Shown here: piece by piece, positions 1,712 to 24,834 of the stretch | Numbering within the stretch: the first letter of the stretch is position 1 | Layout: each line of letters starts with the position of its first letter | NCBI RefSeq assembly: GCF_003590875.1 | Contig: NZ_QYUN01000002.1 | Location: forward strand, 806,001 to 870,000 | DNA from: Noviherbaspirillum cavernae | GTDB lineage: Bacteria; Pseudomonadota; Gammaproteobacteria; Burkholderiales; Burkholderiaceae_D | Direction: 5' to 3' | Length of the DNA: 64,000 bases | Made by a program: the position numbers and the translations under genes | Notes under the pieces: model-generated | What the model saw: the letters and a program-made list of their open reading frames with translations, nothing else | Told to the model about the DNA's origin: nothing | The model's database searches: none

Positions 1712-1719
1712 GGCGACTC

Positions 1720-2160
1720 CTACAATGCGGCAAACGGCGTGCCATCCCGCTTGCTCCCCGACGCGCCGCTACGTAGATCAAAAACATTGCCCTTGGCAGC
1801 ATCGTCCGGCGGAACGATGACCCAAGTGGCTGTGCTCTCCGTGATCGGATCGACGGGCAGGGATTTCAGATATTTCTTGTCGATCAGCTCGCTCAACGAC
1901 TCGGGGTAGCGGCCGGTATCCCCATAGAATTTGTCGATGGTTTCCCGCGTCAAGCGCAAGTTGTCTATCAGGACGGTTTCCCTGGCGGTATCGATGCTCT
2001 GGAAATATCGCGGCAGGGACAGCGTCGCCAGCAGCGCAACGATCGCCAGCACCACCAGCAATTCGATCAGCGTGAATCCATGCGACGGCAGTCTCTGCGC
2101 GCATGCCATGCGGTTGGACGAAACGCGAACGATGGGTTGTGCCGGCATGACAGTCACCAT
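1720..2160 (-). CDS. Pseudopilin (GspG/GspH-like)
   Basis: A 146-residue protein with a 27-residue leader ending in the prepilin motif [18 protein letters not shown], which keeps the cleavage Gly, mature Phe1 and Glu5. The soluble part ([20 protein letters not shown], then SLPVDPITE) matches the GspG pattern in which a loop after the long helix places the protein into the pilus rod. It overlaps the end of the upstream pseudopilin gene by 7 bases, so it is translationally coupled in the operon. It probably assembles into the pseudopilus with the other three pilins of the cluster. Confidence 0.85.
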
Positions 2161-2717
2161 TTCCGATACGGGATGCTGTTCAAGCCGATCTTCGACGATG
2201 TCGAGTACACGTCATACACGTCCTCGCCTTCCTGTGGATCGGCCGCGTCGCTGGCATAACTTCTTTTGCCCCAGGTGACCGCCTCTGATATCTCGGAGTT
2301 TGCATGCATCGGATCGCGTGGAATTCGCCGCAGAAAATAGATCTTGTTGCGTCGCGGATCCCGCTGGTCGGGGATGCCTTCCACCAGGATTTCCAGGTTT
2401 TTCGGATAGCCGCTGCTGCCGATCGATTTCGCGATGCGGCCTTCGTCGCTCGCCTGTTTGTAGGCATCGATGCCGCGCCGGACTTCCCACAGGGCGCGGC
2501 GCAATTCCTGCTCCTGGCTGCGTTGCACGCCCACCTGCGCGAGCGGAACCGCAATGCTCGCCAGCACACCCAGAATGGCAAGCGTGATCAACAGTTCGAT
2601 CAAGGTAAAGCCAGGCGTCATGTCACGACGGCGTAGCCATCGGCAAGCGCGCATCATGCGGCTTTGTTGATGCGATGCAGGATTCGGCATGCGATCCGAT
2701 AATGCGCCTGCCATCAT
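2154..2717 (-). CDS. Pseudopilin (GspG-like)
   Basis: A 187-residue protein with the prepilin motif [16 protein letters not shown] at about residues 35-50. Downstream, [17 protein letters not shown] and the [18 protein letters not shown] segment give a GspG-like body. The ATG at 2717 overlaps the secretin stop codon (TAATG), which favours this start, but it gives an unusually long leader of about 35 residues; the internal Met at residue 33 would give a near-standard short leader. Encoded directly after the secretin and before two more pseudopilins. A structural pseudopilus subunit is the likely role. Confidence 0.82.
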
Positions 2718-5149: not shown

Positions 5150-5694
5150 CAGTCGGATACTCCAATGGTCAGCGTTTGCACCTGCGTCAACGGCAAGTAA
5201 GTGAGTGAGAGGGTCGGCGGCTTGATGGCGTCGATCCGGTAGATGCCGTCGATCACCGCCTTCTCCTGCACGATGTGCGTGCGGTCGCCTTGCGCCAGAT
5301 AGACTTCCCACACACCACTCTCGATTTTTTTTCCCAGGTAGGCGAAAGGCAATGGTGGCGCGCTCGGTGGCGGTGGTGGCGGCTTCGGTGGTGGCGGGGG
5401 CGGCGGCGTCCAGCTTTGGGTGGTAAATATTCCATCCGTGGAAATTGCAGCGTGTGCCCCACCGATCAGCGTTTCGCGCGGCTGTAAAGCCAGGATGTCA
5501 GGGAGGGGCTCGCTGCGGGTGCTTTGCTTTGCGATGCCGCTCTGTGCAGGAAAGGTTGTTCCTGCAGCCGGTGGTCCCTTGTTTGCTCGAGTAACAGGTT
5601 CGGCAATGCCGGTGTCGGGTGACTTGTCGCCAAACAGCGCGAGCCATGCCGTCATCGCCAAAGCAGCGAACATCACGAAATGCCTGCGCTTCAC
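5149..5694 (-). CDS. Proline-rich PilP/GspC-like periplasmic linker protein
   Basis: A 181-residue protein with one N-terminal hydrophobic segment (residues ~5-22), a disordered middle containing long proline tracts around residues 97-115, and a C-terminal domain beginning FAYLGKKIESGVWEVYLAQGD that resembles the HR/PilP beta-domain which contacts secretins. It sits exactly where pilP (after pilM-N-O) or gspC would be expected, immediately before the secretin with a 1-base overlap. Probable role: bridge between inner-membrane platform and secretin. Similarity is by pattern and position, so the call is moderate. Confidence 0.65.
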   Translation of the reverse strand: MKRRHFVMFAALAMTAWLALFGDKSPDTGIAEPVTRANKGPPAAGTTFPAQSGIAKQSTRSEPLPDILALQPRETLIGGAHAAISTDGIFTTQSWTPPPPPPPKPPPPPPSAPPLPFAYLGKKIESGVWEVYLAQGDRTHIVQEKAVIDGIYRIDAIKPPTLSLTYLPLTQVQTLTIGVSD

Positions 5695-6305
5695 AACTCT
5701 GCATCCCGCGTCATTAACGCCTCTTTATCCTTCGAAAGAGGCGCATCCGTCAGATAGAGCGTCAACCGCACGCGGGCTTCCAGCGCAGGATTGCCAATCG
5801 CCTCGCGTTTGAATGTGAGTTCGTCCAGCGACGCAAATGGAATGGCGAGCAGCAGTTGTTCGCAAAACTGCCGGAGCGCGCTATATGATCCTTTCACCGG
5901 GAAAACGACTTGATAGGTTTGGAAGTGTCCGTCTTTGCTTTCACCCAGCCGGTATTCTGCCGTACGCAGCATCAAACCCGTCTTGCCCGCAATGGCAAAC
6001 AGGGTTTTGATTTGCTGTTCGACATATTTCGCCTCGCCGAGGCTGTCGTAGAAGGCCGCCAAACGTGCTTCGCCGACCGGACGCGGCGCGACCACGAGAG
6101 TTTGCCTTGTCGCCTGCAACAATTGCTGCGTGCGAACCAAGGCAAGATGCTGCGCGTCGATACGTACGCGCAGCTGCGGCAGGCCCAACAGCCACGCCGA
6201 TACGCCAATAAGACAAAGCAAGCAGGCGATTCCCTGGATCCAACCGACTCGTGCCAGCGCCAGACGCATCTGCAGGATGCGAGAGCCGAGGCGGAATGAC
6301 TTCAT
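5691..6305 (-). CDS. PilO/GspM-like inner-membrane assembly protein
   Basis: About 204 residues when started at the ATG at 6305, which overlaps the upstream stop (ATGA); the open frame extends 6 codons further. It has an N-terminal transmembrane segment (IQGIACLLCLIGVSAWLLGL), a coiled-coil-like stretch (RIDAQHLALVRTQQLLQATRQ) and a C-terminal ferredoxin-like region (YQVVFPVKGSYSALRQFCEQLLLAIPF), the classic PilO/GspM arrangement. It overlaps the next gene by 4 bases. It should heterodimerise with the PilN-like protein encoded just upstream. Confidence 0.75.
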   Translation of the reverse strand: MKSFRLGSRILQMRLALARVGWIQGIACLLCLIGVSAWLLGLPQLRVRIDAQHLALVRTQQLLQATRQTLVVAPRPVGEARLAAFYDSLGEAKYVEQQIKTLFAIAGKTGLMLRTAEYRLGESKDGHFQTYQVVFPVKGSYSALRQFCEQLLLAIPFASLDELTFKREAIGNPALEARVRLTLYLTDAPLSKDKEALMTRDAEL

Positions 6306-6853
6306 TCGCCACCTCCTGTCCATCGCGCCTCGAACTGGAAACGCAGCGGCTTGTTCGTATCCTGTTCGTTGACGTCGTGCCTGGTCAGCACAACGGCATC
6401 AAAATACGACTGTTGCTTCAACTGCTCGATATAGGCAATCATCGCCTCGCTGCTCCTGGCTTCAGCAAGGCCTTTCAGCACCTGTTTCCTGGCATCCGGC
6501 TCGAGCGCCAGCAGGGCGACGGTCGCCGGCGTCGCGGCCTCGATCGCATCCAGCACATCGCGCCATGGCAGGTTCAGTTGGGCGGTCGCCTGATTGACCG
6601 CGTCTGCTTGCGACGCCGACACCGTCCATTTTTTAGGAAGAGGCTGGCGCGCCCGGTTATCGGCCAGTTGTACCTGAAGCTGCTTCACGCGGCCTTCTTC
6701 GGCGCGGTAGCGCTGGTCCAAGGTCCATGCCGTCATTCCGACCGCAATGCACGACACGATGCCAATGCATAGAAGCGCCCAGGCAACCGGCTTGGTGCGG
6801 ACGATGGCACGCCGGAAGCCGCGCGGAGCGAAGTCGATGGAACTGGATTTCAT
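6302..6853 (-). CDS. PilN-like inner-membrane assembly protein
   Basis: A 183-residue protein: a short basic cytoplasmic start, one transmembrane helix (AWALLCIGIVSCIAVGMTAW), then a periplasmic region with coiled-coil character (RYRAEEGRVKQLQVQLADNRA) and a compact alpha/beta domain. This is the PilN (or C-terminal GspL) architecture. The order ATPase, PilM-like, PilN-like, PilO-like, PilP-like, secretin reproduces the pilMNOPQ order, while the ATPase, platform and pilins are of T2SS/MSHA style. It overlaps both neighbours by 4 bases. Confidence 0.72.
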   Translation of the reverse strand: MKSSSIDFAPRGFRRAIVRTKPVAWALLCIGIVSCIAVGMTAWTLDQRYRAEEGRVKQLQVQLADNRARQPLPKKWTVSASQADAVNQATAQLNLPWRDVLDAIEAATPATVALLALEPDARKQVLKGLAEARSSEAMIAYIEQLKQQSYFDAVVLTRHDVNEQDTNKPLRFQFEARWTGGGE

Positions 6854-7672
6854 CGCCGCAGCCCCGTCATGGCCAGGATAGCCCCTGCCGACATGGGACT
6901 GTCCAATGCAGGTGTGGGCATGTCAAGCTGCACGTAGGTGAAGGGTCCGGCAGCCTCGGTGATCCACTGTTCGGGAACATCGCCGCACAATTGCACCTGA
7001 TCGGGCGCAGAAAGATTCAATATGAGCGCCTCCCGCGACACGTGTCGGGCTAACCAATGCCGCTCATGACATATGTCATTCGCCAGCAAAGTCGATCTGA
7101 CGGTGCATATTCTCTGCCGATCGCGCACGCCGAGCGTCAGGATGTTGCCATGGACGGTGCCGAACCATGCGGCAGGACGCCAGTGCTTGCGCCACTGGTT
7201 GCAGGCGGCGATGAAGTGCGGGACGATGCCGACGATGGTCAGCCGATGTTCGATCGCAATTCGTTGCAACCCATCCAGCAATGTCCGCGGTATCGCACAA
7301 GCCAGGAACGGTCGACAGGCATCCCAGTCGGCGTCGAGTTGCCAGTCGCCTGGTGATTCACCATAGAGCGTCTGGAAACGCAGTGACGCCGCTGCCTTGC
7401 AATCCTGCAGGCGCACGGCATTGCGGGGTGGCGTCACCATGAAGTAACGCACCCAGTCATCGGCCAGAATGATGGTGGTGAGCAGCTTGCTGCATTGGGC
7501 TTCCTGCAACAGATGGCGCAGCGTTGTCATGTGATGATCGGCTGCCGCGCGCGCATCGTTCGTGACATCCGCTTCCGCGAGAACGCGAAAGCGTGGTTGC
7601 CGCCAGCCGCCGCTGTGCAGCAGCGTGATGCGCGTTCCGGACAGGCCGATGCGCAGCGATGCTCCGAACGGA

Positions 7673-7680
<8 letters not shown>
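6850..7680 (-). CDS. PilM/GspL-cytoplasmic-domain-like protein
   Basis: A 276-residue soluble protein with no membrane segment. Its start (LRIGLSGTRITLLHSGG) and internal layout resemble the actin-like fold of PilM or the cytoplasmic half of GspL, though the nucleotide-binding motifs are weak. It overlaps the end of the ATPase gene by 8 bases and the PilN-like gene by 4. In this family the protein docks the ATPase to the membrane platform. Identification rests mainly on position and overall pattern. Confidence 0.6.
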
Positions 7681-9360
<1,680 letters not shown>

Positions 9361-9364
<4 letters not shown>

Positions 9365-10560
9365 GACAGGCTCCCGGCAAGGTCGAAGATCGGCATGTAG
9401 AGCAGCACCACAATCGCGCCCACGACCAGACCGATTGCCGCCATGAGCAAGGGTTCGAAAGTGCGCGTAAAGCGATCGATCCAGCGACTGATTTCGCCAT
9501 CATAGAAAGTCGCAGACTGCGTCAGCATCTGGCCAAGCTCGCCCGAGCGCTCGCCGACGCGCAGCATCCGCAATGAGATCGGCGTGGTCAATCGGTTCTG
9601 CACAAAGGCCACCGATAGCGGTGTGCCGGATTGAATGGTCTCGGTTGCCACCTGCAATCCGGATTTGACCTGCGCGGACACGATCCCCTGTACGGTGTTC
9701 AGCGCGGCAACGATGGGAATCCCGCCCTCGAGCAGCATGCCCAGCGTCAGGTACAAACGGGACAGTTCGTAAATGCGTACCCGTTCGCCGATGCCGGGCA
9801 GCTTGACCAGCGCCTGTGCCAAGCCACCCTGAGTAACGAAGATGCGCAGCCAGACGAGAAGCAATAACGAAGCGATCGACAATCCCGGAAAAAGCAGGTG
9901 TGCATGGCTTCCCGCAAACCGTCCCCATTCCAGTAGCAGCTCCGATAACAATGGCAAGGAACGCCCCGCGCCGCGATACACGTCCGCAAACCGCGGCACG
10001 ACATAGCCGATCAAAAAGAATGTCACACCGCCGCCGACAAGCAGCAGGATCATCGGATAGATCATGGCACTGATGATCTTGCTGCGCACACTGTCGATGC
10101 GCTGCTGGTAGTCAATGAAGCGTGCCAGCGATTGCGGCAAATCGCTGGTGCCTTCGGCGGCCTGCACAATGCCGATGTACAGCGGCGGGAAAAGGTCGGG
10201 CTGCTCCGCCAATACCCGCGAAAAGCGTTTCCCCTCACGCAAGCCGAGCAATAGCCGGCTGAGAACCTGATGTGTCGCGTCGTTGGTCTCCTTTTCCAGC
10301 AAGGCTTCCAGCGATTCGACGATGCTGAGTCCTGCCGTCAGCAACGCCAGCAATTCCTGGCTGAACAGCACCAGCGACATGGATCGGGATGACGCCTTGG
10401 ATGTGATCCTGCCGAACAGTGCATGTCGCGCCGGTGCGATGGACGCGGCATACAGTCCGCGCGCTTCGGTTTGACGTCGCGCATCCACCTCATCGAACGC
10501 ATCAACGGTCAGCTCCGTCACGATGTGATCGGCGGACAGGGCACGGACAACGTACTGCAT
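9361..10560 (-). CDS. gspF: GspF/PilC-family inner-membrane platform protein
   Basis: A 399-residue polytopic protein with the two repeated GspF domains (from about residue 65 and from about 270) and hydrophobic segments near residues 165-190, 215-235 and at the C-terminus (LLMAAIGLVVGAIVVLLYMPIF). Motifs such as LFSQELLALLTAGLSIVESL and LTLGMLLEGGIPIVAAL are characteristic. It is the rotor/platform that converts ATPase motion to pilin polymerisation. It lies 30 bp after gspG and overlaps gspE. Confidence 0.92.
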
Positions 10561-10590
10561 ACCGGGAGTACTTTCGAGCGTGGCAGGAGA

Positions 10591-11082
10591 TCAGTTGCTG
10601 ATATTGGCATCGTCGCCGGTGCCGTCTGCCTGGCCATCCTTGCCATAGGACAGAACTTCAAAGTCACCCTTGCTGCCGGGAGCACGATAAAGATAGGCGT
10701 GGCCCCATGGGTCGAGCGGTACCTCTTTTTTCAGATATGGACCATTCCACTTCGTTGCCGAGGCGGGTTTGATGAGGAGGGCGGACAACCCCTCCTCGGT
10801 GGTGGGATAGCGTCCGACATCGAGACGGAATGTATCGAGGGACTTTTCGAATGCCTCGATTTGGGATCTGGCGACCGTGACTTCGGATTTGCCTAGCTGA
10901 GAAAAATATTTCGGGCCGACATATGAGGCAAGCAATCCAATTATCACTATGACAATCAGAAGTTCTAGTAGCGTGAATCCAGAAGGGCCGCAAGTGCGAA
11001 AGGAGAATAAAGGATCGGACTGCGGCCGGCGGTAATGTGGCAACGTTACTCTGGATTGTTCTAACATGAATTTTCTTGACAT
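10591..11082 (-). CDS. gspG: Major pseudopilin GspG
   Basis: 163 residues from the ATG at 11082, chosen because AAGGAG lies 8 bases upstream; an open extension to 11217 lacks this. The prepilin motif SGFTLLELLIVIVIIGLLAS is canonical (Gly at -1, Phe1, Glu5). The C-terminal half has the GspG signature YPTTEEGLSALLIKP, WNGPYLKKEVPLDPWGHAYLYR and the calcium-loop-type ending SYGKDGQADGTGDDANI. First gene of the secretion operon. Confidence 0.94.
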   Translation of the reverse strand: MSRKFMLEQSRVTLPHYRRPQSDPLFSFRTCGPSGFTLLELLIVIVIIGLLASYVGPKYFSQLGKSEVTVARSQIEAFEKSLDTFRLDVGRYPTTEEGLSALLIKPASATKWNGPYLKKEVPLDPWGHAYLYRAPGSKGDFEVLSYGKDGQADGTGDDANISN

Positions 11083-11453
11083 GCCGCGCTCCTTCTTCGA
11101 GCGCGCAAGCGTAACACGAGCAACCTGCTGAAACAACAAACTCGCAGGACTCGAGATCTCATAGAAAGCGTTATCCCGTAAATATGGGATGTGTGATGGC
11201 TTAGTATTCTGTACCATCTCCCTCGCTCAAAATTATGTCATCTATTGTCAAGCGAAGTTGTGTAGACGCATAACTGTGAATTTCACTGTCGATATCCGGG
11301 AACGTGCTGAAAACGGGCAAGGCATTATGTTTTATAGGGTGACATAAAAGCCAAGAGAAAAATGAGAGTTTTTATGCAGAGATGCTTTGGACATTGCATT
11401 TGGACGTGAAATGAATCTCTGTTGTTTTTGTAAAAATCAAATTCGATCAATAT
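11083..11453. other. AT-rich divergent intergenic region
   Basis: 371 bp between the secretion operon (leftward) and the RHS locus (rightward). It is visibly AT-richer than its surroundings, especially 11225-11453, and should hold both promoters. I see no hexamer pair convincing enough to name, no riboswitch-like structure and no gene. The AT-rich stretch would suit silencing by an H-NS/MvaT-type protein. Confidence 0.5.
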
Positions 11454-13844
11454 ATGAATAAAGCGGAAGAATTGTCGTTGACGAGACGAATGTTGTACTC
11501 AATGAATATGAGAAAATTGATGATCAACATCATTCGGCATCTTGTTCCGCGATATTGGATCCGCCATCAGCAAGCGAAATTCATTCTGAGGTCTCTAGTT
11601 GCAATCATCCTGATTGCGTTCGCAATCCCTTCTCATGCGCTAACCGGCACTATTCCTTCCGGGGGATCCAAGTATCCACTATATCCAGGACTGGATATTT
11701 CGAATGTTTGCTACCTACTTGGAGTAGGTCAATTCGCAACTTCAGATATAGGTGGAGTCAAGTGGGATTGGGGACTTATGTCTGCACAGGGCGATCCTTT
11801 GTCAGTTCCTGGCCCAGACTGGAATAACGCAGGAGCAATCTGTATTAACTATCCGGCGGACTATGAAACTTCTGCTCTTTACCCACGGCCGGTATTTCGG
11901 CCCACACCGCCACTCTGCCCCCCTGGCCCGATCTTTTCATATGATCCTGCTACTCCTGACGTATGCAAGTGGACTTGCCCCGGTGACCAAGTGCTCGTTG
12001 GTTATCAATGTGGCGGTAGCAAGGATGAAGGCCCTCCCTGTTGCGAAGGTAGTTCGCCTTTCCCTATTCATGGCGGCACCGGAAATAAATATTGGTCTGA
12101 CACGGATTACGAATCTGCGGCTAATCACGGCCTGATTTTCCGTCGTTACTACAATAGTCGAGCTGCCGGTACCGCGCGTGTGCTTGGCGCTGGCTGGAGT
12201 CACAACTATGACCGCATCGTTACCGCAGGAATGAAGATCAATGGCGTTTCGTCTGTGACGGTATCGCGTCCTGGCGGATCCACTTATATTTTTACCGCGA
12301 ACGGCACCTCCTATGTGGCGCAAGACGGGGATGTCACCGACAGATTGATTCCTCAAACAGATGGGACCGGCAAGGTAATCACATGGGAATATTCAGTTGC
12401 CGCCGACGGCTCGGTCGAAACATACGATGCTGCGGGCAAGTTGCTATCGATACGCAACCGAGTCGACTTGACACAAACCCTGACTTATAGCGATACCACA
12501 ACTGCGCCTGCCATTGCTCCCGCACCGGGGTTGCTGCTAAAAGTGACCGACGCCTACGGGAGAATGATCGACTTCACATACGATAGTAGCGGCCGCATCA
12601 ATAAGATGACAGACCCGTCAGGTGGCGAATATCGGTATGCATATGATGCGGATAACAATCTCGTGTCGGTAACGCTCCCCGATACAAAGGTTAAGGGTTA
12701 TTCGTACAATGAAGCCGCCTACACCGGAGGAAATACGCTTCCGCATACATTGACTGGCGTGACAGACGAGAATGGTTCCCGGCTTGCAAGCTATACCTAT
12801 GATGCTCAAGGAAGGGCATACATCGGGCAACATGCTGGTGGCGTTGACCAATATCAGTTGAACTTCAGTCCTGACGGAAGCAGCACAACCACAATCGATC
12901 CGCTGGGAACGGCTCGTACTTATAGCTACACGTCAATCCTCGGAGTCACGAGAGCAACTGGGCAGTCGCAACCCGCCGGCGCTGGCAGCGCTGCAGCAAC
13001 GCGCTCAACTACCTATGACAGCAATGGCAACGTGAAAAGTCGGACTGATTGGAATGGAAATCTGACGACGTATGACTACGACCTCGTGCGCAACCTGCAG
13101 ACAAGACGTACGGAAGCATCCGGCACACCGCAAGCGAGGATGATCACAACGGCGTGGCATCCCACACGCGATGTGCCGGAAAAAATTGCCGAACCAAAGC
13201 GAGTCATCATGTTTTCGTATGATTCCTTAGGAAATATGTTAGGCAAGACGCTTCAAGCCACCAGCGATGCGACAGGTGTGCAAGGATTTTCCGCGTCCGT
13301 GGTAGGAACACCTCGCACGTGGACCTATACCTACAACACTGCAGGCCAAGTGCTGACGGCAACCGGCGCGCGCACCGACATCGACGACACGACGACATAC
13401 ACTTACGACAGCCATGGCAATCTGGCGACGGTCACGAACGCACTTCAGCATGTCACGACCCTGTCGAACTACGATGCCAACGGCCGCGTCGGCCGTATCG
13501 TCGACCAAAACGGCTTGATCACCGATCTGGCATACAGTCCGCGTGGCTGGCTGACATCGAAGACAGTGGGCGGTGAAACCACCACCTACGATCATGACGG
13601 CGTCGGACAATTGACCAAGGTGACCCTGCCTGACGATGGCTACATCAGCTATACCTATGATCCCGCACACAGGCTGACGCATGTTGCAGACAATCTCGGC
13701 AACAGTATCACTTACACGCTGGATGCGATGGGCAACCGGCTGAAGGAAGAGGTAAAGGACGCGGGCGGGACGCTGGCGCGGCAAACAACCCGCATATATG
13801 ACGCGCTCAACCGCCTCCAGCAAATCACTGGAGGACAGCAATGA
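11454..13844 (+). CDS. RHS/YD-repeat protein, N-terminal part of a split RHS toxin
   Basis: A 796-residue secreted protein; several in-frame Met codons (11454, 11490, 11502) make the start uncertain. A hydrophobic signal segment (FILRSLVAIILIAFAIPSHA) is followed by a Cys-containing N-domain to about residue 190, then a DUF6531-like entry (GTGNKYWSDTDYESA, GLIFRRYYNSR) and a long run of YD repeats (for example YDSSGRINKMTDPSGGEYRYAYD). It stops at ITGGQQ inside what would normally be a continuous YD barrel, and the next gene starts within its stop codon (ATGA). The first half is AT-richer than the second. In known RHS toxins this region forms the shell around the toxin. Confidence 0.82.
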   Translation: MNKAEELSLTRRMLYSMNMRKLMINIIRHLVPRYWIRHQQAKFILRSLVAIILIAFAIPSHALTGTIPSGGSKYPLYPGLDISNVCYLLGVGQFATSDIGGVKWDWGLMSAQGDPLSVPGPDWNNAGAICINYPADYETSALYPRPVFRPTPPLCPPGPIFSYDPATPDVCKWTCPGDQVLVGYQCGGSKDEGPPCCEGSSPFPIHGGTGNKYWSDTDYESAANHGLIFRRYYNSRAAGTARVLGAGWSHNYDRIVTAGMKINGVSSVTVSRPGGSTYIFTANGTSYVAQDGDVTDRLIPQTDGTGKVITWEYSVAADGSVETYDAAGKLLSIRNRVDLTQTLTYSDTTTAPAIAPAPGLLLKVTDAYGRMIDFTYDSSGRINKMTDPSGGEYRYAYDADNNLVSVTLPDTKVKGYSYNEAAYTGGNTLPHTLTGVTDENGSRLASYTYDAQGRAYIGQHAGGVDQYQLNFSPDGSSTTTIDPLGTARTYSYTSILGVTRATGQSQPAGAGSAAATRSTTYDSNGNVKSRTDWNGNLTTYDYDLVRNLQTRRTEASGTPQARMITTAWHPTRDVPEKIAEPKRVIMFSYDSLGNMLGKTLQATSDATGVQGFSASVVGTPRTWTYTYNTAGQVLTATGARTDIDDTTTYTYDSHGNLATVTNALQHVTTLSNYDANGRVGRIVDQNGLITDLAYSPRGWLTSKTVGGETTTYDHDGVGQLTKVTLPDDGYISYTYDPAHRLTHVADNLGNSITYTLDAMGNRLKEEVKDAGGTLARQTTRIYDALNRLQQITGGQQ

Positions 13845-15268
13845 ACCGTCATCCATTGATGTACCTGACAGCGGCTGCAGTATTGACCGGAGTGACCGGG
13901 ACGGCTGCAGGACAGGCCCCGCAGAACACCACCTACAGTTATCAATACGACGCCGTTGGCAATCTGACGCGGATCACCGACCCGCTCGGACATGTCACGG
14001 ACCAAGGCTGGGACGCGCTGAACCGCCTGAAGCAGAAGCAGCAGCCGGCGCCGACAACGGGCGCGCCACGCCCCACCGTCAACTACAGCTACGATGGTCT
14101 GGACCAGCTGATTTCCGTGACCGATCCGCGCAATCTGGTGACGAGCTACACGATCGACGGCCTCGGCAACCAGACAGGCGTGGTCAGCCCCGATACCGGC
14201 AACGCGAGCAGGACCTACGACGAAGCCGGCAATCTCAAGACCAGCACCGATGCCAGGGCGCAGACCACCAGCTATCAGTACGATGCCCTGAACCGCGTCA
14301 CCCGCATCGCCTATGCCGACGGCAATGCCGTCGATTACACGTACGACCAGGGAGCCAATGGAATAGGCCGCCTGACGCAGATCGCCGAGGCAGCCGGCAC
14401 CACCCGATACGCCTACGATCAGAAGGGGAGAGTCACTCTCGAGACCCGCACCATAGGCGGCATGGCGTACGCAACCGCCTACAGTTACGACAGCGCAGGC
14501 CGTCTCTCCGGCATCACGTACCCGAGCGGGCGCATGCTCGCCTACATCCGCGATGGTGCCGGCCGCATTGCCCAGATCGACACGACCAGGGAGGGCGTCA
14601 CGGCGACGCTTGCGAGGCAGGTCACGTATCAGCCATTCGGCGGGGTGCGGTCGTTTGTCAACGGCGCCAACGTCACCGTGACACGCAGCCACGATCTCGA
14701 CGGCCGCATTACCGGCTATTCTCTCGGCGCGCGCACTGCCACGGTGACCTATGATCCCGCCTCCCGCATCGGCAGCATCGGGGATGCCGCCAATCCGGAC
14801 AGCGTCAGGCACTACGCTTACGACGACCTTGACCGGCTTGCCAGCTATCAAAGCCAGAATGGCAGCATCAGCTACGGCTACGACCCGGTGGGCAATCGGA
14901 CCAGCAGGGTCATTGGGGCAAGCGTCACCAACTACAGCTATGCGCCGACCAGCAACCGCCTGACCCGGGTCAGCGCCGGCCAGACCAATGACGTCGTCAC
15001 CGATGCCAATGGCAGCATCACAAACAACGGCGCAAACCAGTTCGCCCATGATGCCCGCGGCCGGATGGTGTCTGCGGTCACGGCACAGGGGACAGTGCAC
15101 TACAAAATCAATGCGCTGGGGCAGCGCGTGCAAAAGATCACGCCAACGGAAGCGATCGTGTACCACTACGACACGGGTGGCAAGCTGATCGGGGAAAGTA
15201 CCGCCGACGGCATCTTCAGGAAAGACTATGTCTATCTGAACGACATCCCGGTGGCGGTACTGAAGTAG
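13841..15268 (+). CDS. RHS/YD-repeat protein, middle part of a split RHS toxin
   Basis: 475 residues, almost entirely YD repeats (YSYQYDAVGNLTRITDPLGH, YDEAGNLKTSTDARAQTTSY, YAYDDLDRLASYQSQNGS). The ATG overlaps the previous stop and is preceded 6 bases upstream by a perfect GGAGG at 13830-13834. The first ~25 residues (MNRHPLMYLTAAAVLTGVTG, then TAAGQ) look like a signal peptide, so this is a separate coupled gene rather than a plain frameshift. It ends at YVYLNDIPVAVLK, the point where a normal RHS protein continues into the DHLNTPR core; that core is found in the gene at 15783. Confidence 0.82.
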   Translation: MNRHPLMYLTAAAVLTGVTGTAAGQAPQNTTYSYQYDAVGNLTRITDPLGHVTDQGWDALNRLKQKQQPAPTTGAPRPTVNYSYDGLDQLISVTDPRNLVTSYTIDGLGNQTGVVSPDTGNASRTYDEAGNLKTSTDARAQTTSYQYDALNRVTRIAYADGNAVDYTYDQGANGIGRLTQIAEAAGTTRYAYDQKGRVTLETRTIGGMAYATAYSYDSAGRLSGITYPSGRMLAYIRDGAGRIAQIDTTREGVTATLARQVTYQPFGGVRSFVNGANVTVTRSHDLDGRITGYSLGARTATVTYDPASRIGSIGDAANPDSVRHYAYDDLDRLASYQSQNGSISYGYDPVGNRTSRVIGASVTNYSYAPTSNRLTRVSAGQTNDVVTDANGSITNNGANQFAHDARGRMVSAVTAQGTVHYKINALGQRVQKITPTEAIVYHYDTGGKLIGESTADGIFRKDYVYLNDIPVAVLK

Positions 15269-15355
15269 CGGCAGCAGCAAGGAAGAGCCAGGCAGCAAGG
15301 GCAGTCGATAGTCGGCGGCCCGCGCATGCTGTGGCCGCCTCCCGATAACTCAAAG

Positions 15356-15718
15356 ATGAAATGCATCATGCAAAAAATCCTTTCCCGCTTCCTGTTCGCC
15401 TGCGCAAGCGGTCTCGCTTTTCTTTCGATGCCGGCGTCGGCGGTGGTGTTCGGGAGCGACGCGGTTACGGTTACGCGCTACTACATCTATGCGGAAATCA
15501 ATGGCGATGTGATTTTCTGGTATTCGCCTGCCACTGCGATTCCAGGTTGTGATGGCGGATGGATATCGGGAACGCAAGCCGGCACAAAAAGCATGGTGGC
15601 AACGCTGATCGCAGCGAAGGCCTCATCGGCTCCCATGACCATATTCCTGAATACGGAAAGCTTGTGGAGCGGATCCGGCTCGCGATTCTGCAAGGTCGAT
15701 GCGATGGGGCTGAGCTGA
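15356..15718 (+). CDS. Small secreted protein, SubB-like pattern, inside the RHS locus
   Basis: About 120 residues from the ATG at 15356 (alternatives 15326 and 15368). A signal peptide (LSRFLFACASGLAFLSMPASA) precedes a short mature domain with two Cys. Its layout, YYIYAEINGDVIF, then Cys, then TKSMVATLIAAKASSAPMTI, then Cys, aligns with the small protein at 19045 (LLYVEMDGDVYV...Cys...YATLLAAQASGRRISI...Cys). The pattern resembles a family of ~100-residue exported proteins related to the subtilase cytotoxin B (OB-fold) subunit; this is pattern memory, not a search. It sits exactly at the gap between the second and third parts of the split RHS protein. Confidence 0.6.
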   Translation: MKCIMQKILSRFLFACASGLAFLSMPASAVVFGSDAVTVTRYYIYAEINGDVIFWYSPATAIPGCDGGWISGTQAGTKSMVATLIAAKASSAPMTIFLNTESLWSGSGSRFCKVDAMGLS

Positions 15719-15782
15719 CCGGTCACACGGGATCGGTAAAACAAAAACGACGGTCGGAATACTCAAGATTCAGGGGGATGGT

Positions 15783-18377
15783 TTGCTCAAGCATGTGACT
15801 CTATTTCTGGCGGCATTGTTCACCTCGTGGGGACTGCATGCGCAGACAGTATCGACAATCGACGCCCGCACGCTGGCGGCGATTGTCGGATACCTGCTCG
15901 ACGCCGATCCCAGGGTGGCACTGACGGCATCTGTGAGCAATTTCTCATATTCGCCCTTGTCCACCGTTACATTGACCGCGAGTGACAGCGAGTTTGAAAG
16001 GCCAATTGCCAAAGTCGAGTTCTTCAATGGCACAACCCTGATAGGAACCGCCACAGCGGCTCCGTATACTTATAGTTGGAACAACGTGCCAGCTGGCAGC
16101 TATACGATCACGGCAAAGGCAACCGACAGCCAAGGTGTGAGTGTCAAATCCAACACCGTCCCACTCGTCGTGAAGGCACCGCCCGAAATTGAAATTATTG
16201 TGCCGGAAAACAATAGAACCTACTTTTTTGTTGCACCAGAGAAGGCATTGAAACTCGATCTGAGCGCTGTCGTGAAGGACTGCGATCGCAGCATTGTAAA
16301 GGTTGAATTCTTCAACGGAGCCACTCTATTGGGTGGGGATACGCGTATACCGTTCCTGAATTGTAGGGCCGATGAATGGGGCATCGCCTTTGTGTCTGAG
16401 TTCTTTACGTGGACCAATATTGCGCCCGGCAACTATACCATCACCGTCAAGGCAACCGATACCAGTGGCACAGTAACCACTTCCGCACCAGTCAACATGA
16501 CTGTGATGGAGAGCCACGCGCCAGCAGTGAATATCACGGTGCCGGCCAACAATGCATCGTACACAGCGCCAGTGGAGGTGACGTTAACTGCCAACGCCAC
16601 CGATAGCGATGGCAGCATTGTTAAGGTCGAATTTTTCCATGGCACGGCGTTGATCGGCACTTCCATGGTGGCACCGTACACCTTCAATTGGACTCACGTT
16701 GCGGGCGGCAACTATGCGATCACGGCGAAGGCGACGGATGACAAGGGTCTGATGACCACGTCTGCAGCGGTCACCTTCACGGTGGCGCACAATCAGGCAC
16801 CCACGGTGGCGCTGACTGCGCCGGCAAACAACGCCAACTACATGGCGCCGGCTACGGTAACGCTGACAGCCACTGCGAGCGATACCGATGGCAGCATTGC
16901 GAAGGTCGAATTCTTCAACGGCAGCACGCTGCTCGGCACCGCGACGGCGGCGCCATACACGTTCGACTGGACCAGCGTGGCCGCCGGCAGCTACACGATC
17001 ACGGCGAAGGCGACGGATGACAAGGGCTTGACCACCACGTCCGCTGCGGTCGCCATCACGGTGGCGCAGAACCAGGCACCGACGGTGGCGCTGACGGCGC
17101 CGGACAATGGCGCAAGCTACATCAGCCCGGCCAGCATCGCCCTGACGGCCAATGCCACGGATGTCGATGGCACCATTGCCAAGGTGGAACTCTATGATGG
17201 CAGCACCTTGCTGGCCACGCTGACCCAAGCCCCTTACACCTTCATGTGGAATGACGCGACGGCTGGCAGCCATGCGCTATTGGCCAGGGCGACCGACAAT
17301 TTCGGCACGACGGTCGCGTCGCCGGCGGTCACCATCACGGTAATCTCGAATCAGGCTCCCGCCGTCAGCGTCACGGCCACCCCGGACATTGCGGCCGCAC
17401 CGGCGACGATCGAGCTCGCTGCCACCGCGACCGATACGGACGGCACGATTGCCAGAGTCGAATTCTTCAACGGCAGCACGCTGCTGGCAACCGTCACCAA
17501 TGCACCCTACGTCCACAGCTGGACCGGCGTTGCCCAGGGCGGCTACACCATCACCGCCAAGGCCGTCGACAATGCCGGCGCGGTGACGGCATCGGCGCCG
17601 GTTGCGGTGACGGTGACCGGAAATGGCGAGCAGGCGGCTTACTACATCTACGCCGACCACCTGAATACGCCGCGGTTGATCACCGATGCGGGCAGCAATA
17701 CGGTATGGAAATGGGACAACGACGAACCGTTCGGAAACGGTCTGCCTGACGCCAACCCGGGTGGAGCCGGCACGAATTTCGAGTTCAACCTGCGGTTCCC
17801 GGGGCAGTATTTCGACCGCGAAACCAATCTCCATTACAACTACCATAGGGATTATGATCCAGGCACGGGACGGTACGTTCAATCCGATCCGATTGGACTG
17901 CAAGGTGGCATCAATACCTATGCATATGTCGGGGGAAATCCAATAAATAGAATTGATCCGATGGGGTTGGAGACTGTTATCGTCATAAACAACAATACTC
18001 CACTGATTGGCATGCATGCAGGTGTTTACACAGGGTCGGGGTCCGATCGCACACTTTATGATCCAGGTGGGAGTTACCGTAACTATCTCAAAGGCTCCGG
18101 TGATGCCCTGTACGGGAGAGATGCAAATCTCCGCGACTATATTAAGTACCAGACGGCAGATGGGAGCGATGTCCAAGTCTATCGGTTCCCGACTACCCCT
18201 GAAGAGGAAAGGCAAATAAGCAGCAGAATTGAAGAGCAAGGAGGTGGTACTCCTGGAAACTGTGCCATTAGGACTAGTCAAGCAATCCAAGGAATCGGGC
18301 CTTTCAAAAACCTTGGGGTTTCCTTGACTCCTGCGGGCTTAGGACGAGATCTGGCAAAAATATCGGGTTCAAAATAG
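15783..18377 (+). CDS. Ig-repeat protein with RHS core and putative cysteine-hydrolase toxin tip
   Basis: 864 residues from a TTG start (AGGGGG just upstream; a GTG at 15795 is the alternative). Signal peptide LFLAALFTSWGLHA, then six Ig-like repeats of ~95 residues (about 36-610) sharing the core AKVEFFNGSTLLGTATAAPY and GSYTITAKATD. Next comes the RHS core (YADHLNTPRLITDA, LRFPGQYFDRETNLHYNYHR, GRYVQSDPIGLQGGINTYAY) to about residue 727. The variable tip (728-864) has LIGMHAGVYTG with His745 and GTPGNCAIRTSQAI with Cys827: the His-first, Cys-later order of permuted papain-like (NlpC/P60, LRAT-like) hydrolases. Base composition drops over the tip. A putative immunity gene follows with no gap. 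Confidence 0.78.
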   Translation: MLKHVTLFLAALFTSWGLHAQTVSTIDARTLAAIVGYLLDADPRVALTASVSNFSYSPLSTVTLTASDSEFERPIAKVEFFNGTTLIGTATAAPYTYSWNNVPAGSYTITAKATDSQGVSVKSNTVPLVVKAPPEIEIIVPENNRTYFFVAPEKALKLDLSAVVKDCDRSIVKVEFFNGATLLGGDTRIPFLNCRADEWGIAFVSEFFTWTNIAPGNYTITVKATDTSGTVTTSAPVNMTVMESHAPAVNITVPANNASYTAPVEVTLTANATDSDGSIVKVEFFHGTALIGTSMVAPYTFNWTHVAGGNYAITAKATDDKGLMTTSAAVTFTVAHNQAPTVALTAPANNANYMAPATVTLTATASDTDGSIAKVEFFNGSTLLGTATAAPYTFDWTSVAAGSYTITAKATDDKGLTTTSAAVAITVAQNQAPTVALTAPDNGASYISPASIALTANATDVDGTIAKVELYDGSTLLATLTQAPYTFMWNDATAGSHALLARATDNFGTTVASPAVTITVISNQAPAVSVTATPDIAAAPATIELAATATDTDGTIARVEFFNGSTLLATVTNAPYVHSWTGVAQGGYTITAKAVDNAGAVTASAPVAVTVTGNGEQAAYYIYADHLNTPRLITDAGSNTVWKWDNDEPFGNGLPDANPGGAGTNFEFNLRFPGQYFDRETNLHYNYHRDYDPGTGRYVQSDPIGLQGGINTYAYVGGNPINRIDPMGLETVIVINNNTPLIGMHAGVYTGSGSDRTLYDPGGSYRNYLKGSGDALYGRDANLRDYIKYQTADGSDVQVYRFPTTPEEERQISSRIEEQGGGTPGNCAIRTSQAIQGIGPFKNLGVSLTPAGLGRDLAKISGSK

Positions 18378-18863
18378 ATGACTGACCAAAGACGAGAAGG
18401 CGCTGCTTTGAGGGCAAAGATTTGCGTGTTATTCGCAAGCATTGCAATCACTTTTGCTCTCAATGTGGCAATTGATGGCGACTATATCGATCGCCGGATT
18501 CATGTTTATCGTTCCGCGTATCTAGGTGTTTTTTATTTCGCTTTATTTTTGATGCTTGCCGTTTATCTGTATCTCAAAAAGATAAGGGCAGCAATGTCTT
18601 GGACATGCCTGTTGTATGGAATGGGGTTTGGCTGCATGGCAGGTGTGATAGCGTATTTTTTGAGTATTACCCTGGATGTCTTCGGCGTGAAAAATAATAA
18701 GCTTCTACCTGATCAAATGCTTCTTGAACTTGTCTTTCAGAGCTTCACATTTCCTCTTTTGGTATTGAGAAGTTGGTTGTACGGTTTGATCGCTGGGCTA
18801 ATGTTGTTCCAAGGTTGGAAGATTGTTCAACGCATATTGATTCATGGCCCGGATAGAACGTAG
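18378..18863 (+). CDS. Small polytopic membrane protein, candidate immunity protein
   Basis: 161 residues with about four hydrophobic helices (AKICVLFASIAITFAL, YLGVFYFALFLMLAVYLYL, MGFGCMAGVIAYFLSI, LYGLIAGLMLFQGW). Its ATG is the triplet right after the stop codon of the RHS-tip gene. The DNA is clearly AT-richer than the RHS genes (26 G/C of 60 in 18421-18480). No recognised family. Position directly after the variable toxin tip, small size and foreign composition are what is expected of a cognate immunity protein, and a membrane immunity protein would suit a toxin that acts in the periplasm or at the membrane; that link is inference. Confidence 0.7.
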   Translation: MTDQRREGAALRAKICVLFASIAITFALNVAIDGDYIDRRIHVYRSAYLGVFYFALFLMLAVYLYLKKIRAAMSWTCLLYGMGFGCMAGVIAYFLSITLDVFGVKNNKLLPDQMLLELVFQSFTFPLLVLRSWLYGLIAGLMLFQGWKIVQRILIHGPDRT

Positions 18864-18872
18864 CGCGCGTAG

Positions 18873-18898
18873 GGTGCAATAGCGAAGCGTATTGCGCC
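18873..18898. repeat. REP-like hairpin
   Basis: GGTGCAATA and TATTGCGCC form a 9-bp stem (one G-T pair) around an 8-base loop GCGAAGCG, just after the candidate immunity gene. The same kind of palindrome (GGCGCAATA..CGAAGCG..TATTGCGCC) is widespread downstream of genes in proteobacteria. It may act as a weak terminator or mRNA end; there is no T-run. Confidence 0.5.
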
Positions 18899-19044
18899 GC
18901 ATGTACCGCAAGCATGTGAAGGAGCGTTGCTCATTGCGAGCATCCTTCGCCTGTTCCCGGATGAAGGCGCCCGCGAGCAGGTAACTGGTACATCGTCACA
19001 TAAGTTAATTCCCATAATTTCATAGAAATGGAGAGAGTGAAGTA

Positions 19045-19449
19045 ATGTGCACACAATACAAAAAAAAGACCGCCCTTGGCAGGACCTTCTGGCGCGCATG
19101 CATTGCCATGGCCGTGTTCCTGTCGGCCGCGCTGGGACTTGCCGGCCAGGCGCAGGCGGCTTGCACGGGAAGTCAATCCGCCGGCACTGTGGCATGCAGC
19201 AACGTGGCAATCACGCTGCTGTATGTCGAGATGGATGGCGACGTCTACGTTGCAACCGATGGAGATGTCGCCTCGACGGGATGCACGGCAAATGGCGGAC
19301 TGATCAGACTGCCCGGAACGGCGGCGAAGTTCAACGCGGCTTATGCCACGCTGCTGGCGGCCCAGGCGTCGGGACGCAGGATTTCCATTCGAATGAGCTC
19401 TGCGGTTCAGTATTGCACGGCCACGTACCTTACCCTGGCGAGTCAGTAG
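19045..19449 (+). CDS. Small secreted protein, SubB-like pattern, after the RHS locus
   Basis: 134 residues with a good ribosome-binding site (GAGAGAG). The signal peptide ends AGQAQA before mature ACTGSQSAG. The mature domain has four Cys and the pattern LLYVEMDGDVYVATDGD, Cys, KFNAAYATLLAAQASGRRIS, Cys. It is a diverged paralogue of the protein at 15356: G-D-V in strand one, a central Cys, the helix YATLLAAQASG and a late Cys all align. A resemblance to OB-fold B-subunit-like exported proteins is suspected, not shown. It is the last intact gene before the IS3 remnants. Confidence 0.65.
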   Translation: MCTQYKKKTALGRTFWRACIAMAVFLSAALGLAGQAQAACTGSQSAGTVACSNVAITLLYVEMDGDVYVATDGDVASTGCTANGGLIRLPGTAAKFNAAYATLLAAQASGRRISIRMSSAVQYCTATYLTLASQ

Positions 19450-22665: not shown

Positions 22666-22865
22666 CCATCCGTTTTTCGCCAGCTTGCCACAAATCCGCA
22701 GTATCCCGCATGCCAGGCACTACCAGGTTTCAGGTATTGCCCTCAAGAGTTGCCATACGCACACTTCGTACTCGTGTTTTCTGACAGGTCCCAAGGTGGA
22801 GCGACAAATCGCGCGCCATGTCGGAATTGGCAAGCATGCTCCTATTACAAACCTTCCCTATCCCC

Positions 22866-24569
22866 ATGGCCGTAAAAAAGCATCGACGTAATGGTTCCCT
22901 GGCCTTTTTCGCCGTGACGCTTACCCTCTATGGCGCCAGTGCCGCCAGCAGGGCCCAAACCGTGCCCCCCTTGCCTCCCGACGCCGGCCAGGTGCTGCGC
23001 GATCTGCAGCAAGCGCCACCTGTCGCACCGCCGCAGAGCGCACCCCTGCAACGCATTGAAGAATCCGCAGAGGCCAGTCAGAACCTGGCCAAAGTCTTCA
23101 TCCAATCCATCGCCATCACCGGCAACCAGGAAGTGTCCACGGCTGAACTGCAGCCGCTGATCGCCGGGCTGGTCGGCTCCGAACGGACGTTCAGCCAGCT
23201 CAGTGCCGCCGCCAGGCGCATCACGGCCTACTACAGGAGCAAAGGCTTCGCAGTTGCGCGGGCCTACCTGCCGGCACAGGACATCACCGACGGCAAAGTG
23301 ACCATTGCCGTCATTGAAGGCCGCATCGCCAGTCACAGGGTAAACAATCAGTCCTTGCTGTCCGACGAACGCGCCCACGCCTATCTGGACCGGATCAAGG
23401 ACGGCGACGTCATCAAGAGCGAGCAGATCGACCGCGGCCTGTTGCTGCTGCAGGACACTCCCGGCGTCAGCATCTCCCGGGCCACCCTGCAGCCCGGCGC
23501 CAGTCCGGGGACTTCCGAACTCCTGATCGACATTCAGCCCGCCGCGCCTTACAACGGCAACATCGTGCTCGACAACTACGGCAGTCGCTACACCGGCGAA
23601 TACCGGCTCGCCGGCACCTTCAATCTGGCCAGCCCGCTCAGGATCGGCGACCAGCTTGGCTTCAGCGCCCTGACCAGCGGAGACGAGCTGCAGTTCGGGC
23701 GCATCGCCTACCAGCTACCGGTCGGCAGCAATGGCCTGCGCCTGGGCGCCGCTTACTTTGACATCCGCTACAAGCTCGGCAAGGAATTTGCAGACTTGCA
23801 CGCCCATGGTACCGCCAGCAGCGGCACCATCTATGCGGCTTACCCCTTCATCCGCAGCCAGCTCAAAAACCTGAACGGCACCATCTCTTTCGAAGACAAG
23901 CGGCTCAATGACTATGTAGACGCCACGTCCACCGCCACCGCGAAGAAAGTCCAGACCACGAGCCTGGGCCTGTCGGGAAATCTGCAGGACGCGCTGGCAG
24001 GCGGCGGCATCAACAGCTTTGACCTGTCTCTGGCATTGGGCAATCTCAAAATTCAGTCTCCGACGGCGTTGGCCATTGACGCTGCATCGGCCCAGACCGA
24101 TGGCCGCTACAGCAAGCTCATCTGGAGCGCCAGCCGCCTGCAGCGCTTTACCAATGCCACCTTCCTGTCCATGTCCATCATCGGGCAGCAGGCCAGCAAG
24201 AACCTTGATTCTTCCGAGAAGTTCAGTTTGGGCGGGCCGACGGCGGTACGCGCCTATCCCATTGCCGAGGCGCCGGGAGATGAAGGTTACCTGGCCACGC
24301 TGGAGCTGCGCCACAACCTGATGCCCAGAGTGCAGGGCGTGCTGTTCTATGACTTTGGCTCGGTCACGATCAACAAAACCCCGTTTGGCGCGGCCGCAGC
24401 AAACAGCAGAACGCTTTCGGGCGCGGGATTGGGCCTGAACGCCAGCCTGGACAGGGTACAACTCAAGGCCAGCCTGGCCTGGCGCACCAGCGCCGACTTG
24501 CCGACGTCGATCCCGGTGTCTGCCGCTCGGTCGCCTGTGTTCTGGCTGCAGGCCGCTGTGGCGCTTTAG
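22866..24569 (+). CDS. Two-partner secretion outer-membrane transporter (TpsB, FhaC/ShlB family)
   Basis: 567 residues from the ATG at 22866 (in-frame 22818 also possible; neither has a clear ribosome-binding site). The signal peptide ends near ASRAQ. A periplasmic linker and two POTRA domains follow (FIQSIAITGNQEVSTAELQP; ...DGKVTIAVIEGRIASHRVNN), then a 16-strand barrel. The lid-loop signature appears as GGPTAVRAYPIAEAPGDEG; VRAY replaces the VRGY/F of FhaC itself, a known variant in this family. Its stop codon TAG is formed by host TA plus the first G of a small inserted element. It exports the TpsA protein encoded downstream. Confidence 0.88.
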   Translation: MAVKKHRRNGSLAFFAVTLTLYGASAASRAQTVPPLPPDAGQVLRDLQQAPPVAPPQSAPLQRIEESAEASQNLAKVFIQSIAITGNQEVSTAELQPLIAGLVGSERTFSQLSAAARRITAYYRSKGFAVARAYLPAQDITDGKVTIAVIEGRIASHRVNNQSLLSDERAHAYLDRIKDGDVIKSEQIDRGLLLLQDTPGVSISRATLQPGASPGTSELLIDIQPAAPYNGNIVLDNYGSRYTGEYRLAGTFNLASPLRIGDQLGFSALTSGDELQFGRIAYQLPVGSNGLRLGAAYFDIRYKLGKEFADLHAHGTASSGTIYAAYPFIRSQLKNLNGTISFEDKRLNDYVDATSTATAKKVQTTSLGLSGNLQDALAGGGINSFDLSLALGNLKIQSPTALAIDAASAQTDGRYSKLIWSASRLQRFTNATFLSMSIIGQQASKNLDSSEKFSLGGPTAVRAYPIAEAPGDEGYLATLELRHNLMPRVQGVLFYDFGSVTINKTPFGAAAANSRTLSGAGLGLNASLDRVQLKASLAWRTSADLPTSIPVSAARSPVFWLQAAVAL

Positions 24570-24757
24570 AGGGCCTGACAAAATGATTCTGAGGGCGTTG
24601 CGTCCCTTGCAGGGCGCACCTTGGCTGGCAAGCCAAGGCTGCTATGCAGGCGCAAAGCATGCTTTGCGAATTCCCTGCTTCGCCCTTGCTGTACAGACGT
24701 ACTGTCTGCGGCGGCGCGTCTACTCAGAACCGCTTCGCTTCATTTTGTCAGGCCCTC
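24569..24757. mobile_element. TIR-ended MITE-like element, copy 1
   Basis: A 189-bp non-coding element between tpsB and tpsA, flanked by TTTA on both sides (24565-24568, 24758-24761). Its ends are perfect inverted repeats, GAGGGCCTGACAAAATGA. In minus orientation its interior matches the element at 51207: TTCTGAGTAG, CGCAGACAGTACG and TGTAC near one end, CGCAAC and CCCTC before the other end. It carries an extra ~80-bp block with nested palindromes (GCAAAGCATGCTTTGC; CCTTGGCTTGCCAGCCAAGG). No ORF. It may also form a strong RNA hairpin separating tpsB from tpsA. Confidence 0.8.
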
Positions 24758-24834
24758 TTTAGAAGAGACAAGAAATGAGACGCGTGGGCTGATTGTCCGT
24801 CGGCCGTGATCGAAAACGCTTAAAGGAAAACATC

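Follow-up and report, generated by a model that had tools for sequence, protein, structure and literature searches.

Three consecutive Rhs/YD toxin genes in Noviherbaspirillum cavernae: a conserved split and a possible assembly of the chains in the periplasm

Is an Rhs gene that falls into three consecutive pieces a broken gene, or does it encode a toxin that is built from several chains? The question is raised by a locus at positions 11454-18377 of a stretch of 64,000 nucleotides from Noviherbaspirillum cavernae (NCBI RefSeq assembly GCF_003590875.1, contig NZ_QYUN01000002.1, positions 806,001 to 870,000 of the forward strand). This whole stretch is called the window in the following, the three genes are called genes 1, 2 and 3, and loci and genomes from the surveys carry numbers beginning with L and G. 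We read the locus as a working multi-chain Rhs/YD polymorphic toxin, the chains of which would cross the inner membrane by the Sec pathway, join in the periplasm and leave the cell through the adjacent type II secretion system (T2SS), and we give this reading a probability of roughly 70%.

Gene 1 (11454-13844, on the forward strand like all features from here to 18863) encodes 796 amino acids with a signal-like segment, a variable N-terminal part of about 150 residues, DUF6531 (residues 204-280) and the N-terminal half of the YD shell with nine RHS_repeat stretches (Pfam). Its stop falls within the YD run, the C-terminal end reading ...LNRLQQITGGQQ before the stop codon. At the junction (13830-13844) a GGAGG (13830-13834) is followed by a 6-nt spacer and by the ATG of gene 2 (13841-13843), which overlaps the TGA of gene 1 (13842-13844) to give ATGA. 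Gene 2 (13841-15268; 475 amino acids) begins with a signal-type N-terminus that extends to about residue 25 and continues with the core-less C-terminal half of the YD shell; nine stretches of YD repeats are its sole content and it ends in IPVAVLK. A search of its own genome gave one close copy, gene 1 being the sole other match. Gene 3 (15783-18377, start codon TTG 15783) encodes a signal-type N-terminus and six Big_7 immunoglobulin (Ig) repeats, after which follow YYIYADHLNTPR...DPIGLQGGINTYAY and a variable tail of about 135 amino acids. Its Rhs core, comprising the lid and autoprotease region (17640-17969), is matched by TIGR03696 at 1.4e-24, corresponds in solved Rhs shells to about the last 100 residues and ends in the autocleavage-type motif NPINRIDPMGL, which is of the PxxxxDPxGL type as defined in the accessible part of PMC8765631. 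With DUF6531, YD repeats and this core the locus has the features of an Rhs/YD polymorphic toxin. An earlier note on this DNA, made from the letters, had pointed to the stop inside the YD run, the ATGA start with its GGAGG and the IPVAVLK end, and all of these proved right when the coordinates were re-read; that the Rhs continuation comes in gene 3, behind a signal-type N-terminus and six Ig repeats, is likewise confirmed.

The split between genes 1 and 2 is a conserved arrangement and not decay. A gene 2 scan of 195 genomes of the family gave a match at 1e-20 in 34; 20 regions, picked by hand from the better family matches, were read gene by gene, as were the best 80 of 427 confirmed loci from a single scan of 84,980 species in one collection. 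The two sets share some genomes (G016, G187, G186, G111 and G192, recognized by contigs of identical length) and hence distinct loci were counted. By hand tally 23 distinct loci, counting the window, share this position of the break, and further probable loci, e.g., L204 and G107 (contig end), lie outside this count. The 23 loci include Undibacterium, Massilia, Collimonas, Duganella, Silvimonas, Aquabacterium and an uncultured Burkholderiales; the two genes overlap by 4 bases in 19 of them and by one base in another, and are separated by gaps of 79-93 bases in the remaining three. In the protein database, where proteins of 0.55-1.75 times the query length were admitted and 7998 candidates were scored, 94 of the best 120 of 1167 gene 2 matches (the window's own included) are chains of 440-520 amino acids, of which 92 pass the signal rule given below and 93 end at the same P-V-A motif before the core. 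The three-gene order, for which the earlier note suggested a search in relatives, recurs with a separate gene 3 carrying Ig repeats and core at six further loci in two other genomes (L033, L034, L037-L040; it runs off the contig in L033 and L034), and at 12 of the 23 loci (L042-L048, L061, L096, L106, L127, L131) gene 2 is fused to core and tail.

The break carries start signals of its own. N-termini were judged by a rule of our own making, other than SignalP, which asks for a hydrophobic 10-mer with K/R before it and a small-x-small motif after it. It is passed by all 24 gene 2-type chains (the 23 loci and L049, the latter without gene 1 directly upstream), by all seven gene 3 chains and by 17 of 21 gene 1 chains, compared with none of 60 internal methionine windows and none of the 44 corresponding places in longer Rhs frames, a difference beyond chance. 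In 15 of the 20 overlapping junctions examined, a Shine-Dalgarno core stands ahead of the gene 2 start, versus 5 of 44 longer Rhs frames at the same place (p 9e-7). The ratio of nonsynonymous to synonymous substitution rates (dN/dS), calculated from close pairs among relatives with the window in none of them, is 0.09-0.23 for gene 2 (eight pairs), 0.13-0.23 for gene 1 (six pairs) and 0.09-0.55 for the first 60 residues of gene 2 (six pairs). The relatives' copies of genes 1 and 2 are under purifying selection.

These data bear on the simplest alternative, namely that an ancestral single-chain Rhs gene was frameshifted in this strain or that the sequence is in error. For such a pseudogene speaks that continuous homologues in the same register exist, that decayed pieces do occur (L041 looks frameshifted, L050 and L051 are fragments) and that the selection figures stem from relatives' copies and none from the window's own. 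However, the same break with a start site and a signal-type N-terminus is present at 23 loci in several genera, the Shine-Dalgarno core is enriched, the signal segment is missing from all 44 longer frames, dN/dS lies well below 1 in the relatives and all three frames are open in the window, and decay or sequencing error was rejected as highly improbable. The statement of the earlier note that simple sequencing error does not explain the breaks thus stands; decay in this strain only, which it had named as the finding that would overturn its view, is not what is seen, as the nearest gene 2 relatives are split alike and carry signal-type N-termini. The conserved splitting in many related bacteria therefore argues for an assembly strategy and not for a broken gene. 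A programmed frameshift that fuses genes 1 and 2 into one chain could be suspected, since gene 2 lies in another frame and overlaps by 4 bases. Other loci with this break have the two genes at -1, 79 or 93 bases, and at a second break point in Gammaproteobacteria the gaps range from -4 to 117 bases; moreover, a fusion would place the hydrophobic signal inside the sheet. Because the spacing at the gene 1/gene 2 break spans -4 to +93 bases, we regard a frameshift mechanism as very unlikely.

The fit of genes 1 and 2 to Rhs proteins that are made as a single chain was examined on 44 Rhs frames of at least 1200 amino acids that run through the junction, with offsets extrapolated linearly from BLAST ends. 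Four frames of this set (L055, L056, L075, L078) stop short of the core, L129 begins inside the shell, some are truncated where a contig stops, and L112 and L124 are near-copies from one genome. In 43 of the 44 frames the last residue of gene 1 precedes residue 25-31 of gene 2, mostly residue 30, the exception being L064 with -25. The end of gene 2 lies 1-9 residues before the core in 28 of 37 frames, and in the other nine 52-402 residues are inserted. At this gene 2/core point, other Rhs proteins hold carbohydrate-binding, lectin or Ig-like inserts, and by analogy the Ig arm of gene 3 is plausibly an adhesive or targeting part, as had been supposed in the earlier note. On the solved TcdB2-TccC3 shell (6h6g) the model of gene 1 spans 27-1445 and that of gene 2 spans 1443-2035; residue 47 of gene 2 aligns with residue 8 of TccC2 and residue 5 of YenC2, which puts the gene 1/gene 2 break no more than about one YD repeat away from the TcB/TcC boundary. 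Tiling and conservation together suggest that one shell would be assembled in the periplasm.

The chains might instead be separate secreted proteins that form no joint shell, with gene 2 and gene 3 acting alone, e.g., as adhesins. Free-standing gene 2 chains are common among the 120 best matches, gene 2 stands without gene 1 directly upstream in L049 and L058, and tandem gene 1 copies exceed gene 2 at some loci. The complementary ends, the constant gene order with its overlap and the structural fit to the halves of one shell argue against this. In addition, a YD half-sheet by itself would have exposed open beta edges. We consider separate action improbable, though clearly less so than decay or a programmed frameshift.

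Several further observations weigh against a jointly built toxin. A three-chain particle is a prediction from the genes and from the fit of the single chains. The exact three-dimensional tiling of the two models is confined to the fused Tc shells; on the shells of type VI secretion system (T6SS) Rhs proteins (8cp6, 8qjd, 7q97, 8h8a and others) they overlap by about 85-110 residues and do not abut. Continuous single-chain versions exist, mostly in more distant relatives, and four of the 21 gene 1 open reading frames fail the signal rule, their start or edge being uncertain. Outside the family but within the order, gene 2 is matched at 1e-60 in 33 of 399 genomes, a number that includes the window's own. 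Of the 50 places listed, none but the window shows a frame of 440-520 amino acids; 21 frames measure 742-961 amino acids, as would a gene 2 joined to core and tail, and 27 measure at least 1077. This survey rests on frame lengths, with up to four candidates scored per genome. The distances of genes 1 and 2 do correlate over 19 loci (r 0.70, 0 of 2000 permutations), which counts in favour of a joint toxin but would also be expected from the shared descent of linked genes.

A shell of several chains has a precedent. The earlier note took one continuous chain as the norm for Rhs proteins, which holds for the T6SS Rhs proteins but not in general, as a two-chain YD shell is already known from TcB and TcC of the Tc toxins (accessible part of PMC8765631). 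The window's locus, on the evidence of its genes, is like this BC cocoon in that its YD shell would have two chains with the break near the TcB/TcC boundary and the toxin tail behind the core. It differs by a signal-type N-terminus on every chain and by a third break that frees core and toxin, and its relatives differ by tandem upstream halves. SpvB was found neither in gene 1 (Pfam, E 0.1) nor in the genome (E 0.001), gene 1 gave no propeller domain in Pfam, and the TcA family PF18276 had no match in the genome, control genomes being equally silent. The locus would thus resemble the BC cocoon in being multi-chain, yet it is not filed as a Tc toxin because SpvB is missing. With the T6SS Rhs effectors RhsA, RhsP, Tse5 and Tse15 it shares the shell fold and the core; in the accessible part of PMC8765631 these are single chains, RhsA with an N-terminal PAAR, whereas here three chains have signal-type N-termini and Pfam found no PAAR in gene 1, which has a signal-type segment instead. 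The Sec-exported RHS polymorphic toxins (Zhang et al., 2012; PMC3482391) have in common with the locus the signal peptide, the RHS region and the variable toxin, split chains not being described in the accessible part of that paper. Bacterial teneurin-like proteins share the YD shell (structural match 9ifo) and, in the protein described in the accessible part of PMC13018210, an Ig-like domain; unlike the locus they are single chains with NHL and an FN-plug. The literature searched, in so far as it was accessible and with supplements and most subscription papers outside its scope, contained single-chain Rhs proteins, TcB with TcC and the Sec-exported RHS class, but not a three-chain exported arrangement.

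Splitting is found at other places as well. In Gammaproteobacteria, among them Pseudomonas, Stutzerimonas, Thiodiazotropha and Marinobacterium, a different break lies near residue 600 of gene 1 in 11 of the best 80 loci, with Reinekea L104 as a twelfth; the downstream chains pass the signal rule in 11 of 11 cases and six of the 11 gaps measure 17-26 bases. A break just before the core, without the gene 1/gene 2 break, occurs in metagenome-assembled genomes of an acidobacterium, a betaproteobacterium and Colwellia (L055, L056, L075). A tree made from the gene 2 region requires four changes for the gene 1/gene 2 break and four for the gammaproteobacterial break, two each being forced by well-supported branches; the tree covers this region only, contains some loci twice and labels the four core-less frames as continuous, and its change counts omit 15 of 92 rows. 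The several changes make it likely that splitting has more than one origin or that losses occurred. Upstream halves can also be multiplied, with two in G016 and in Silvimonas and four in the Collimonas-type genome G186, the arrays of which lie on both sides of its T2SS cluster (L044, L204) and are joined by 4-base overlaps in L044. In Reinekea blandensis (L104:2156-13234) four consecutive upstream halves are followed by one downstream half at the gammaproteobacterial break point, and all five chains pass the signal rule. Where the N-terminal part is comparable over a long stretch, in L035, it is 24% identical, versus 59% in the YD part. Compared with the Tc precedent, new features are the signal peptide on every chain, the third break freeing lid and toxin, the other break point in Gammaproteobacteria and the tandem runs of upstream half-shells, of which as many as four stand before a single downstream half.

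As to how the toxin would leave the cell, a T2SS-like cluster lies divergent from gene 1 (1166-11217, reverse strand). It comprises GspG, GspF, GspE, four small genes (one PilN-like by Pfam), a secretin and pseudopilin-type genes, and the presence of GspE, GspF, GspG, secretin and N-methyl pseudopilins in one cluster identifies it as T2SS. The secretin (2717-5311) carries a C-terminal cohesin-like domain (PF00963); at another locus a dockerin-like insert sits in an Rhs shell at the lid junction (L120:11354-11917), and a cohesin-dockerin link is only a thought. Clusters of this variant, defined by a secretin that is 50% or more identical along no less than 98% of the query, were found in 12 of the 195 family genomes and were compared with 20 homologous clusters from the following, shorter secretin matches, which stop before the tail; the view of the comparison clusters extends some 3 kb past gspG and 7-8 kb past the pseudopilins (L265 and L272 being cut by contig ends), against up to 20 kb around the 12. 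Rhs genes or pieces adjoin the cluster in eight of 12 versus none of 20 (p 4.7e-5), under a grouping drawn post hoc, after the data had been seen. The Rhs is split in G000, G107, G185 (partial gene 2), G186 (both sides) and G187 and of another kind in G016, G038 (a core piece of 176 amino acids) and G078, so that two of the eight cases, G185 and G038, are partial. Two other clusters adjoin other large repeat-type proteins (G062, G164), one adjoins nothing recognized (G001) and one has a contig end close by (G121). Without the window the linkage is 7 of 11 (p 1.3e-4); within 3.3 kb it is 7 of 12 (p 2.4e-4), or 6 of 11 without the window (p 6e-4); and split loci alone, without the window, amount to 4 of 11 versus 0 of 20 (p 0.01). 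A linkage P of about 1e-9 comes from a crude uniform model with rounded copy numbers. Beside the T2SS cluster of G016 (L189:2430-8020) stands a 1530-amino acid Rhs-type protein that overlaps by 4 bases with a separate 333-amino acid chain, which has a signal-type N-terminus and an RHS core match.

This linkage suggests export of the shell by the T2SS, a machine that handles folded substrates. Alternatively, the shell may assemble as proposed and exit by a second T2SS or by the T6SS after assembly, or it may stay in the periplasm or bound to the surface. Many loci with the gene 1/gene 2 break, e.g., the Massilia types, have no T2SS next door, and the genome holds further secretins and GspF-type genes elsewhere, probably a second T2SS, as well as a T6SS sheath gene about 1.15 Mb from the locus. 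Against these routes speaks that the T2SS-adjoining Rhs genes stand on different sides and strands in several genera. Sec signals are, moreover, ill-suited to T6SS loading. We consider another exit unlikely, while giving it more weight than separate action of the chains.

The assembly that we propose would thus run as follows. Genes 1 and 2 would be translated in a coupled way, judging from the ATGA overlap and the ribosome site in the sequence, and a Sec-type signal peptide on each of the three chains is predicted to take it separately across the inner membrane. Once in the periplasm, the gene 1 chain, with the plug side and the first half of the spiral, would meet the second half from gene 2 edge to edge to give one YD shell. 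From the tiling, gene 3 would supply the closing last turn, i.e., the core with the autoprotease lid, further the toxin that the core releases, and the Ig arm, which would sit where other Rhs proteins hold binding domains. The assembled particle would most likely leave by the adjacent T2SS. Conservation, signal-type N-termini, tiling, selection in relatives and T2SS linkage were computed, and from them we infer assembly, stoichiometry, export route and target.

The variable C-terminal toxin module (17970-18374) carries a DP(G/N) stretch in addition to a conserved His and a conserved Cys. Its family comprises eight proteins, including the window's own, on Rhs proteins of 510 to 1505 amino acids, both shorter ones and long single chains, as expected of an exchangeable module. 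As a guess, it may have a cysteine-hydrolase type activity, with an immunity protein embedded in the membrane. Directly behind the gene 3 stop begins a protein of 161 amino acids with four hydrophobic segments (18378-18863), which is a likely candidate for the immunity protein; family profiles gave nothing above the curated cut-off for it, and a search of plasmids gave no match, while all gene 2 relatives found in plasmids were below 60% identity. Between genes 2 and 3, and absent from the description in the earlier note, lies a small open reading frame of 130 amino acids with a signal-like N-terminus (15326-15718); a 48% relative sits at the equivalent position in L034/L053, which are one and the same locus, and the protein search matched the frame only to itself. 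The open reading frame 19045-19449 (134 amino acids) is distantly similar to it (36% over 61 residues, with a pairwise E of 7e-7) and belongs to no known family. A scan for promoters and terminators over 11150-19100 gave sites no more frequent than in shuffles. Further downstream, a TpsB-type transporter (ShlB/POTRA) followed by an open reading frame of 1928 amino acids (22818-30579) is possibly a two-partner secretion pair.

A wider proposal, which we hold tentatively and against the balance of the odds, is that the locus belongs to a class of exported toxins with interchangeable half-shells, in which several upstream halves with different N-terminal domains would compete for one downstream half and, in some, for a separate lid-plus-toxin chain. 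These toxins would be assembled in the periplasm and served by the T2SS variant with the cohesin-like secretin tail, and splitting would have evolved more than once, as the break points of Burkholderiales and Gammaproteobacteria differ, while both groups have upstream halves in tandem. For the biology of these toxins, the locus gives a natural test of YD shell folding, with half-sheets that would meet edge to edge, and suggests a second way besides the Tc toxins of building a multi-chain cocoon. It ties Rhs toxins to a T2SS cluster, where the accessible part of PMC3482391 has a T2SS/Sec-dependent toxin class in its Table 1 with no signature neighbour genes given. Finally, the label "YD repeat-containing proteins", carried by many of the gene 2 matches, hides whole toxin systems.
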